Source of the DNA: Maritimibacter fusiformis | GTDB lineage: Bacteria > Pseudomonadota > Alphaproteobacteria > Rhodobacterales > Rhodobacteraceae | Direction of reading: 5' to 3' | DNA: 64,000 nucleotides | Assembly (NCBI RefSeq): GCF_008086115.1 | Contig: NZ_VSIY01000013.1 | Coordinates: 248,001-312,000, forward strand | Shown: one piece after another, positions 47,020 to 49,271 of the stretch | How positions within the stretch are numbered: position 1 is the stretch's first letter | How the letters are laid out: each line of letters begins with the position of its first letter | Position numbers and translations under genes: made by a program | Notes under the pieces: model-generated | Databases searched by the model: none | The model's input: the letters and a program-made list of their open reading frames with translations, nothing else | What the model was told of the DNA's origin: nothing

Positions 47020-47478
47020 TCAGTTTTCCGCCTCTTCCTCGAGGTGCAGTTTCATGTCGACCAGCACCTGCTGCAGCGCCAGTGTCTCGCGCAACAGCCG
47101 TTTGGCCTCGTTCATGGTGATGATGCCGTCCTCGATCGCCTGCTGATACTCCGACATCAGCATCGCGAACCGCTGCGCCAGCGCGATGACATCGGCATTG
47201 ACGCCGCCGGGCGGCGCGTTGCGCCGGTCCTCGTTGGCATTGACGGTGTGGCCCGAGATTTCCGCCAGCGCCGAGGTCACATGCGGATAGCGCGCCGCCT
47301 CCTCAAGTTTGGCCACCGTGTCGATCGGCATGAAGCGGTCGGCGTGCTCGGGTGCATCGGAATAATAGCGCCCGAGCGTCGCCTTGGATTTGCCCGACAG
47401 CGTGCAGGCATTCTCGATGCCCACATCCTTGACCAGCGCCTCCGTGTGCTTTCTGAGATAATCGTTAAAACCGTTCAT
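47020..47478 (-). CDS. Helix-turn-helix-like regulator, function unknown
   Basis: A 152-residue protein. The N-terminal part (LSGKSKATLGRYYSDAPEHADRFMPIDTVAKLEEAA) resembles the DNA-binding region of phage CII-like or Cro-like proteins seen in alphaproteobacteria. The C-terminal third is a predicted coiled coil (MSEYQQAIEDGIITMNEAKRLLRETLALQQVLVDMKLHLEEE). The ATG at 47478 has GGGGGCAGT upstream. It lies next to the structured intergenic region on the other strand. Not part of a prophage here. Confidence 0.68.
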   Translation of the reverse strand: MNGFNDYLRKHTEALVKDVGIENACTLSGKSKATLGRYYSDAPEHADRFMPIDTVAKLEEAARYPHVTSALAEISGHTVNANEDRRNAPPGGVNADVIALAQRFAMLMSEYQQAIEDGIITMNEAKRLLRETLALQQVLVDMKLHLEEEAEN

Positions 47479-47586
47479 ACTGCCCCCTGGACCGCCCCGC
47501 CGCACCGCTTACGGGGAAAACTTCGTTACTTTTCCCATTAAACCGCGCTTTTGTGAATGCCTTAATGAACTCGACCGCATCCCGAC

Positions 47587-47780
47587 GGTCGTGTGACCAG
47601 TGCCCGGCGCTTCGGTGCCGGCGTGAGTGGGGGTCCGCCATGTTTTCTGGCGGGGCCGGGTTTGAATCTTCCCGGCAATGGCGCTTCGGCGCGTATGAGG
47701 TGTTCAGGTCTGTTCCATCCCCAGGGCGTTCGCGCGCCCCGGACCTTGGTAAAGTTTGCCGCTGCCCATTCCCCACTCGC
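47587..47780 (+). ncRNA. Candidate structured non-coding RNA
   Basis: The 468-base gap between the regulator at 47478 and ugd has no credible coding frame but is full of nested complementarity. From 5' to 3' on the plus strand: GGTC-GTGT-GACC (47587-47598); a 7-bp stem with a C(UUCG)G tetraloop (47604-47621); a long-range 8-bp helix GAGTGGGG (47625-47632) with CCCCACTC (47771-47778); and inside it CCGCCA/TGGCGG (47635-47653), GCCGGG/CCCGGC (47655-47676), a second C(UUCG)G hairpin (47681-47692), and an AGGTCTG/CGGACCT helix (47706-47746) capped by GGGCG/CGCCC. The UUCG loops favour plus-strand transcription. The family is not recognised. Confidence 0.5.
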
Positions 47781-47946
47781 ATCCCGCCATCCGGCGGCCC
47801 GATGCGGCGCCGTCATCCACCCGTGGCGATATCCAGCTAAAGGACGGTCCCGCCCCGCAGTTGCGGCACGCTTTCGCTTCCGCTATGTGCGATGCGCATG
47901 CGCCCTTCGCGGCACCCACCACACTTTCCGGCGAAAGGACTGCGCC

Positions 47947-49113
47947 ATGAACATCGTCGTCGTCGGGCTTGGCTATGTCGGGCTGTCGAACGCGGCCCTT
48001 TTGGCGCGCAATCACCCGGTCGTGGCGGTGGATATCGACGCGGGTCGCGTCGATCTGGTCAATGCGCAAAAAAGCCCGATCATCGACGCCGAACTTGAGG
48101 AGCTTCTCGCCTCCGGCACGCTCGATCTGGTGGCCACGACAGACCCAGCCGGCGCCTACCGTGCCGCCGATTTCGTGATCGTGGCGACGCCGACCGACTA
48201 CGACCCGGCCTTCAACACCTTCGACACCTCGTCGGTCGAGGCGGTGATCCGCGACGTCATCGCGGCAAACGCAAGCGTTCCGATCGTCATCAAGTCGACC
48301 GTGCCGGTCGGCTTCGTCCGGCGCATCCGGGCCGAGCTTGGCACCGAGCAGGTCATGTTCTCGCCGGAATTCCTGCGTGAGGGCAAAGCGCTGTTCGATA
48401 ACCTGCACCCCAGCCGGATCATCGTCGGCGAACGCTCCGACCGCGCCCGTGCCTTTGCCGATCTGCTGGTCGAGGGGGCCGAGGACCGGGACGTGCCGGT
48501 CCTGTTCACCGACCCCGACGAGGCCGAGGCGATCAAGCTTTTCGCCAATACCTTCCTTGCCATGCGGGTGGCCTTTTTCAACGAACTCGACAGCTACGCG
48601 ATGGCGGGCGGCATGGACACGCGCCAGATCATCGAGGGCGTCAGCCTCGACCCCAGGATCGGCGCCAACTACAACAACCCGTCGTTCGGATACGGCGGCT
48701 ATTGCCTGCCGAAGGACACCAAGCAGCTTCTGGCGAACTATGCCGAGGTGCCGCAGAACCTGATCCGCGCCATCGTCGACGCCAACCGGACACGCAAGGA
48801 CTACCTCGCCGAGAGGATCGTGGCGATGCAGCCCAAGGTGGTGGGCATCTACCGGCTGGTGATGAAGGCGGGGTCGGACAACTATCGGCAAAGCTCGGTG
48901 CAGGGCATCATGAAACGGATCAAGGCCAAGGGCATCGAGGTGATCGTCTATGAGCCGATCATGACCGAAGACCTGTTTTTCGGAAGCCGGGTGGTGCCCG
49001 ACCTCGAGACGCTCAAGGCCGAGGCAGACCTGATCATCGCGAACCGCCTGACCGACGAGATCGCCGATGTTGCCGGGCGTGTCTTTACCCGCGACCTGTT
49101 CGGCAACGGCTGA
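47947..49113 (+). CDS. ugd: UDP-glucose 6-dehydrogenase
   Basis: NAD-dependent enzyme making UDP-glucuronate for surface polysaccharides. The 388-residue protein has the Rossmann motif [20 protein letters not shown], the segment [23 protein letters not shown], the lysine/asparagine region [22 protein letters not shown] and the catalytic cysteine in [13 protein letters not shown]. Length is typical of the shorter Ugd group. It follows the structured RNA candidate; downstream lie tRNA-Gly and a polysaccharide-type operon on the other strand. Confidence 0.95.
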
Positions 49114-49197
49114 GAGGCGGCCAACGCTGCAAGCTGTCGCAGGCCCAAGGGGGCCTTGACGCCGCAACCTGTGCAAAATACCTATGGCCGGGTTAGA

Positions 49198-49271
49198 GCG
49201 GGCGTTGTGTAGTGGTAAGACCTCAGCCTTCCAAGCTGATGACGCGGGTTCGATTCCCGCCGCCCGCTCCA
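49198..49271 (+). tRNA. tRNA-Gly (anticodon TCC)
   Basis: Full cloverleaf: acceptor GCGGGCG/CGCCCGC, D arm, anticodon stem TCAGC/GCTGA with loop CTTCCAA (anticodon TCC), T arm GCGGG-TTCGATT-CCCGC, discriminator T and an encoded CCA. Confidence 0.97.

Follow-up and report, generated by a model that had tools for sequence, protein, structure and literature searches.

A predicted structured non-coding RNA gene beside a divergent regulator-like gene recurs in many genera of the Rhodobacteraceae

Genomic Locus

In the window, a stretch of 64,000 nt from contig NZ_VSIY01000013.1 of Maritimibacter fusiformis, a regulator-like gene on the minus strand and ugd, which encodes a protein of the UDP-glucose dehydrogenase family, on the plus strand flank an intergenic region whose larger part is predicted from sequence comparison to encode a folded non-coding RNA approximately 210 nt long (about 47568-47779, plus strand), recurrent in many genera of the Rhodobacteraceae (Table 1). 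The initial annotation had placed a structured element at 47587-47780, upstream of ugd; the element does lie there, but it starts about 20 nt earlier, near 47568, and the coordinates first given cut through the 5' hairpin H1. The 152-aa product of the regulator-like gene has no Pfam match, weakly resembles the YmfL phage regulator family (25.5 bits against a cut-off of 90), and is 71-81% identical to its counterparts in ten aligned relatives; the gene itself was found in 151 of 295 genomes of the family (E <= 1e-10). A palindrome of the form GGGA[AG]-N8-16-TTCCC, which may perhaps serve as the operator of the regulator-like gene itself, occurs within the first 200 nt of 81 of 90 regions upstream of that gene.

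In many related genera the place of the RNA is between the regulator-like gene and tdk, the latter being present in 81 of the 90 upstream regions. Among the tdk genes of relatives, a CTTG motif starts between -52 and -34 relative to the ATG in 61 of 78 cases (background, 6 of 76), typically about 36 nt before it, and tdk is therefore probably transcribed on its own; with this start-proximal promoter, tdk appears close to leaderless across the family. The only tdk match of the present genome, which shares 61% identity with the query, lies on another contig (C12), where the R2 model described below, searched over the whole genome, detects no second copy of the RNA; the RNA adjoins the regulator-like gene instead. 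Here ugd and then a tRNA-Gly gene (49198-49271) occupy 47947-49271, the place held by tdk in relatives, and a rearrangement at this site is likely. A candidate ugd promoter, TTGCGG-N17-TATGTG, was noticed by eye at 47861-47889. While ugd occurs in 71 of 295 family genomes (E <= 1e-80), no match to it was detected when 169 loci surrounding the regulator-like gene were compared in relatives, 60 of these loci being 761 nt or shorter, so the description "upstream of ugd" holds for this genome alone among those compared. The initial annotation had offered either an independent small RNA or a leader controlling ugd; the former is favored, and the latter is not supported, given the same absence among the loci compared. 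The RNA also occurs with no tdk in the stretch compared (the window, L055, L059, and L122) and, in five genomes, with the regulator-like gene missing or reduced to a remnant, arrangements that speak for a gene of its own.

By eye, many relatives carry TATAAA-like letters ahead of H1, and a simple consensus scan returned neither a promoter nor a terminator at the RNA. Among regions with an H4-like helix, runs of T were counted behind it in 7 of 36 and in 11 of 39 cases by a loose search that picked other helices in some rows, including the window.

Table 1. Features of the predicted RNA and its surroundings, in window positions.
Feature	Position	Strand	Basis and remarks
Structured non-coding RNA (predicted)	47568..47779	+	Approximate extent from the R2 model match (108.4 bits, model positions 1-212)
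5' hairpin H1	47572..47591 (arms 47572-47577 and 47586-47591)	+	Helix 1 of A2; helix 1 of A5
Conserved linker, GURACSAGUG type	47593..47602	+	Unpaired in the models; alignments A2 and A4
Hairpin H2	47604..47621	+	UUCG loop in the window, C-rich loop in many relatives; helix 2 of A2
Outer helix P1, 5' arm	47625..47632	+	8-bp helix; A4 covariation, more distant relatives, arm-against-shuffle test
Outer helix P1, 3' arm	47771..47778	+	Pairs with 47625-47632; A4 and more distant relatives
Hairpin P2	47634..47654 (arms 47634-47640 and 47648-47654)	+	Minimum free energy (MFE) fold; helix 4 of A5, 3 of 7 pairs changed on both sides
Hairpin P3	47655..47676 (arms 47655-47660 and 47671-47676)	+	MFE fold; helix 5 of A5, 0 pairs changed on both sides; weaker support
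Inner long-range helix P4, 5' strand	47677..47690 (47677-47681 and 47687-47690)	+	Helices 3 and 4 of A4; helix 6 of A5
Inner long-range helix P4, 3' strand	47758..47770 (47758-47761 and 47766-47770)	+	MFE fold, A4, A5; window register off by one base in A5
GCGYNUANNGGUG-like conserved stretch	47688..47702	+	Alignments A4 and A5
Hairpin H4	47706..47746	+	Carries the most conserved stretch, UUCCAUCCCCAGG (47713-47725); helix 5 of A4, 87.0% of cells paired
Possible -10 of the RNA, TTAATG	47562..47567	+	By eye; TATAAA-like in many relatives
Palindrome GGGGAAAA..TTTTCCC	47513..47536	.	Shared upstream region; possible operator for the regulator-like gene
152-aa regulator-like gene	47020..47478	-	Divergent from the RNA; alignment A1
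ugd, UDP-glucose dehydrogenase family	47947..49113	+	Pfam; not tied to the RNA in relatives

Fold and Covariation

The 194-nt stretch originally described as highly structured is indeed so, folding at -94.3 kcal/mol (z -3.0, with none of 200 shuffles as low); nevertheless, folding energy alone is modest evidence in such GC-rich DNA, and it is the comparative evidence that decides. The minus strand of the same stretch folds similarly (z -3.1, 2 of 200 shuffles as low), and when the window was tiled with 329 segments of 194 nt, just two had a lower z, each inside a long open reading frame. Because an alignment of the whole region with MAFFT from 18 distant rows was useless past H2, the comparison was carried out on the 5' module and on close relatives.

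For the 5' module, a MAFFT alignment (A2) was assembled from 27 of 34 rows chosen for looking alignable, the poorly aligned L062, L119, L102, L105, L108, L137, and L055 being omitted; the window is included both here and in the resulting covariance model, R1. Of the 14 base pairs of H1 and H2, 12 changed on both sides in some row, giving a score of 0.412 as compared with 0.269 for shuffled and at most 0.176 for slid alignments. Both-side changes affect six of seven pairs in each hairpin; 96.3% of cells are paired in H2 and 63.2% in H1, the latter value reflecting a MAFFT register that slips by 1-2 nt (H1 reaches 86.7% as helix 1 of A5). The C-rich H2 loop of many relatives is absent from the window's own copy.

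Nearly the whole RNA is covered by A4, an 11-row alignment of the window and 10 of 14 close relatives (L208, L226, L230, and L211 were dropped, as the tdk start was not located), whose structure was obtained by running RNAalifold on the same data and removing one doubtful helix. Both-side changes were observed in 17 of its 30 pairs and in 36 cells, against 15.0 cells after shuffling, and none of 500 shuffles reached either number; the covariation analysis that had been proposed at the outset thus yields compensatory changes above the shuffled background. Among the six closest sequences (A5), both-side changes were found in 14 of 60 pairs, a number reached in 2 of 500 shuffles; six of these pairs fall among the 12 of the inner long-range helix P4 (helix 6 of A5). 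Percentages of paired cells are biased in A4 and A5, since the structures derive from the same data, and both-side changes are the better measure. The most conserved letters, some of which lie in loops, include GUUCCAUCCC in H4, which is invariant in all 11 rows of A4.

The 8-bp long-range helix of the initial annotation is present as P1, recurring with different letters in more distant relatives, while taken by itself the window's copy is within chance (p 0.23 in the arm-against-shuffle test). The input of that test comprised 38 of 50 R1-matched upstream-region rows (E <= 0.01) and 23 of 40 R1-matched named-locus rows, with apparent repeats and some of the weakest rows omitted and near-repeats such as L040/L220 kept; 55 of these 61 rows were scored, the other six being too short downstream. 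The P1 arm found a better downstream partner than its shuffled versions at p <= 0.05 in 20 of the 55 rows, where about three were expected (combined p 7e-13), although the rows are related and the partner is the P2 strand in some of them.

Two C(UUCG)G hairpins had also been proposed. Both sequences are present and the first hairpin is real, but the second (47682-47691) is lost in the five closest relatives, where its strand goes into a long-range helix instead; since these relatives do not keep it, the second hairpin was dropped as a conserved part.

Strand and Coding Potential

G-U pairs outnumber A-C pairs on the plus strand in three alignments (49:17, 39:9, and 43:9), an excess by which the plus strand appears favored, with the qualification that the A4 and A5 structures were themselves folded on that strand. 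The RNA is predicted to be non-coding, and the absence of protein-coding signal reported initially is borne out by gap lengths and by differing frames in relatives: of the 44 internal gaps in A5, 41 have lengths that would shift a reading frame, and the frames that follow the recurrent start codons of A4 (columns 63-65 on the plus strand and column 231 on the minus strand, each in 5 of 11 rows) differ from row to row.

Recovery and Distribution

When the intergenic region was compared by blastn with 295 family genomes, plasmids, and phages, matches were short and mostly GC-rich or none were returned. One match (G241, L012) was at the right locus, upstream of a gene related to that of the 152-aa protein, and the regions upstream of the regulator-like gene were therefore compared; 90 such regions were drawn from 90 of the 151 genomes carrying the gene, one of which (L139) ends at 181 nt at a contig end. 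Many of them, by eye, share a common order of the palindrome by the gene, TGTCAT, the 5' hairpin, a GUAACGAGUG-type linker, a hairpin often bearing a C-rich loop, the arm GGGUGGGG, and a 3' hairpin containing CAUCCCC. The closest RNA regions by blastn include those of a Rhodobacteraceae metagenome-assembled genome (MAG; L200), Maritimibacter (L198 and L197), and Sinisalibacter (L196).

A covariance model built from 10 relatives with the window left out (R2) recovers the window's RNA over its full length (E 3.2e-23 in the whole of its own genome) as the only significant match, the next having an E of 1.05; the RNA is single copy in this genome. The 5'-part model R1, built from 27 rows including the window, matches 38 of the 90 upstream regions at E <= 0.01, 26 of which are its own rows and 12 of which are loci new to the model. 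Across 295 whole genomes of the family, 27 of which supplied rows for the model, R1 matches 55 at the same threshold, 26 of them row donors; 45 matches sit immediately upstream of the regulator-like gene and five immediately upstream of tdk, whereas one falls on a broken contig and four fall elsewhere (E 2e-4 at best). The five genomes with the RNA upstream of tdk have no full regulator-like gene, and one of them retains a remnant. Among the 29 matched genomes with no row in the model, 24 have their match at this locus. No R1 match was obtained in the remaining 240 of the 295 family genomes, partly through divergence and strict filters and partly through what appears to be real absence; by eye, the RNA is apparently absent upstream of the regulator-like gene in some regions, such as L048 and L056.

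Across the order, R2 matches 8 of 244 genomes, all Rhodobacteraceae, and the lack of a match in the other 236 is not proof of absence, as R2 is narrow and large sets were strictly filtered. Of 385 genomes of the class, three match R1, two in the Rhodobacteraceae and one likely by chance; the latter (G597, E 6.6e-4), outside the family, was taken as chance, its locus having no tdk or regulator-gene match. A scan of named genomes for the locus, with the best 80 loci kept, gave 40 found by R1 and 31 by R2 (10 of the latter being R2's own model rows). The labels of these best 80 are Rhodobacterales or Rhodobacteraceae genera or MAGs, apart from two labeled only Alphaproteobacteria and one unverified record labeled Flavobacteriia.

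A second, diverged group of regions upstream of the regulator-like gene (L044, L109, L117, L125, L131, L115, L141, L149, L126, L140, and L118) displays CTATCCCTCAGG-type hairpins, repeated GAGUG motifs, and UCCAUCCCC. This group probably represents the same RNA in another lineage, and no row of it is matched by R1 or R2 at E <= 0.01.

Comparison With Known RNAs

The initial annotation had found no resemblance to known families such as tmRNA and 6S RNA and had proposed an Rfam scan, the outcome of which agrees. With Rfam 15 at gathering thresholds, the window yields two tRNAs only, and no family matches 47400-47960 even at E <= 10; likewise, none was detected at gathering in 20 relatives, and at E <= 1 ten relatives gave three sub-gathering matches (28.4, 23.3, and 21 bits against gathering values of 60, 40, and 88). 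The RNA resembles 6S RNA (RF00013) in its similar length and long closed helix; however, the 6S candidate of this genome lies on a different contig, and RF00013 has no match at the RNA locus at E <= 10. That candidate (G000:C17:108778-108935) scores 44.0 bits against a gathering value of 46.4, and annotation at that cut-off would therefore miss 6S RNA. With alphaproteobacterial tmRNA (RF01849) the RNA shares a T-arm-like stretch, GGGUUUGAAUCUUCCCGG, whereas the genome's two-piece tmRNA is found elsewhere at 304 bits and neither an RF01849 match nor an ARAGORN call falls at the RNA. With the genome's own 6S candidate and tmRNA located elsewhere, a divergent 6S RNA and a broken tmRNA were rejected as its identity.

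Among RNAs described in related bacteria, UpsM (RSs0682) of Rhodobacter sphaeroides, a structured and terminated 206-nt leader of mraZ in the dcw cluster for which a trans role has been proposed, is similar in length, in being structured, in belonging to the Rhodobacteraceae, and in lying upstream of a conserved gene (PMC5089854). UpsM precedes mraZ, whereas the present RNA lies by the regulator-like gene and tdk (ugd here), tdk seemingly having its own promoter, and it is by location that the two are set apart. A genome-wide intergenic survey from 2021 describes two structured motifs restricted to Rhodobacterales, HRC-8-4 and uORFC-8-2, which occur instead at cco operons and cysS (PMC8632094). 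The small RNA StsR is 72 nt long, and the locus was not found in the available portions of the paper that describes it or of two others (PMC8307010; PMC11109978; PMC2864571). Nor was it found in those of two further papers, from both of whose main texts the word "thymidine" is absent (PMC4809877; PMC5107571). Structured bacterial small RNAs are a known kind, and this RNA family is without description in the open literature searched, as far as the available portions of those papers extend and the supplements of PMC8632094 aside; as that survey may list more Rhodobacterales candidates in its supplements, an earlier computational sighting is possible.

Possible Functions and Outlook

Comparison across relatives establishes, at the level of sequence, the fold (H1, H2, P1, P4, and H4), the conservation of genomic position, and the absence of coding, and on these grounds the locus is interpreted as an independent small RNA gene that is probably trans-acting. 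Being non-coding, conserved in fold, and not bound in its place to one neighbor gene, the RNA has the properties expected of a trans-acting small RNA. Its transcription would be driven by a promoter immediately 5' of H1, would run divergently from the regulator-like gene, and would stop after H4 or after the outer helix. The closed core would present conserved C-rich unpaired stretches, namely the loop of H2, which reads CCCCA in many relatives, and the H4 stretch, that could base-pair to G-rich sites in target mRNAs or be bound by a protein. Small RNAs commonly use C-rich unpaired stretches to pair with ribosome-binding sites rich in G.

That the conserved internal loops act by holding a protein, as a scaffold or decoy perhaps tied to the divergent regulator-like protein, and not by pairing with mRNA, seems a less probable account, albeit one of some weight: it would suit the elaborate conserved fold, the highly conserved loop letters of A4 (the GCGYNUANNGGUG-like stretch and UUCCAUCCCC), and the adjacency of the RNA to the regulator-like gene in 45 of 55 matched genomes, although the retention of the RNA in five genomes with no full regulator gene counts against it. 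More speculative, and in our estimation unlikely, is a new type of riboregulator or ribonucleoprotein core, in which a multi-branched RNA would combine a pseudoknot between the H2 loop and a P1 strand, the H4 internal loop UUCCAUCCCC as a binding site, and a P1-versus-P2 switch for a partner; the pseudoknot fits many relatives by eye (e.g., L042 and L052) and is absent in the window. A possible pairing of the linker GAGUG with a 3' CACUC motif was noticed as well. In L040, L147, and L052, by eye, the 5' arm can pair with either of two overlapping downstream strands, or two strands compete for one, so that such an RNA could perhaps alternate between two folds.

The alternative partners that the 5' arm, by eye, finds downstream in some relatives, together with the frequency of tdk downstream, would also be expected of a cis-acting leader or riboswitch, yet this reading is improbable given the CTTG-type motif that tdk itself possesses, the occurrences of the RNA with no adjacent tdk, the lack of a second copy at this genome's tdk, and the adjacency of ugd in this genome only, among the loci compared. 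It is highly improbable that the element instead forms, on the minus strand, a 5' untranslated region for the regulator-like gene: this strand folds about equally well and the gene start is 90 nt away, but the excess of G-U over A-C pairs favors the plus strand (two of the three structures having been folded on it), and TGTCAT, a possible minus-strand -35 between the RNA and the gene, also occurs by eye in L056, which apparently lacks the RNA. Structured DNA or chance folding at 66% GC, with no RNA function, is hardly credible; the z of only -3 and the chance-level P1 of the window would be in keeping with it, whereas the compensatory changes, the invariant loop letters, and the recovery at the locus in genomes with no model row argue against it.

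The small RNA gene favored here belongs to the Rhodobacteraceae, one of the major marine and photosynthetic bacterial groups. Its alignments and models could seed an Rfam entry, and the RNA is testable in cultured relatives. In summary, recurrence across genera, a conserved place, strong covariation, and an invariant loop make this RNA a good candidate for a core regulator.
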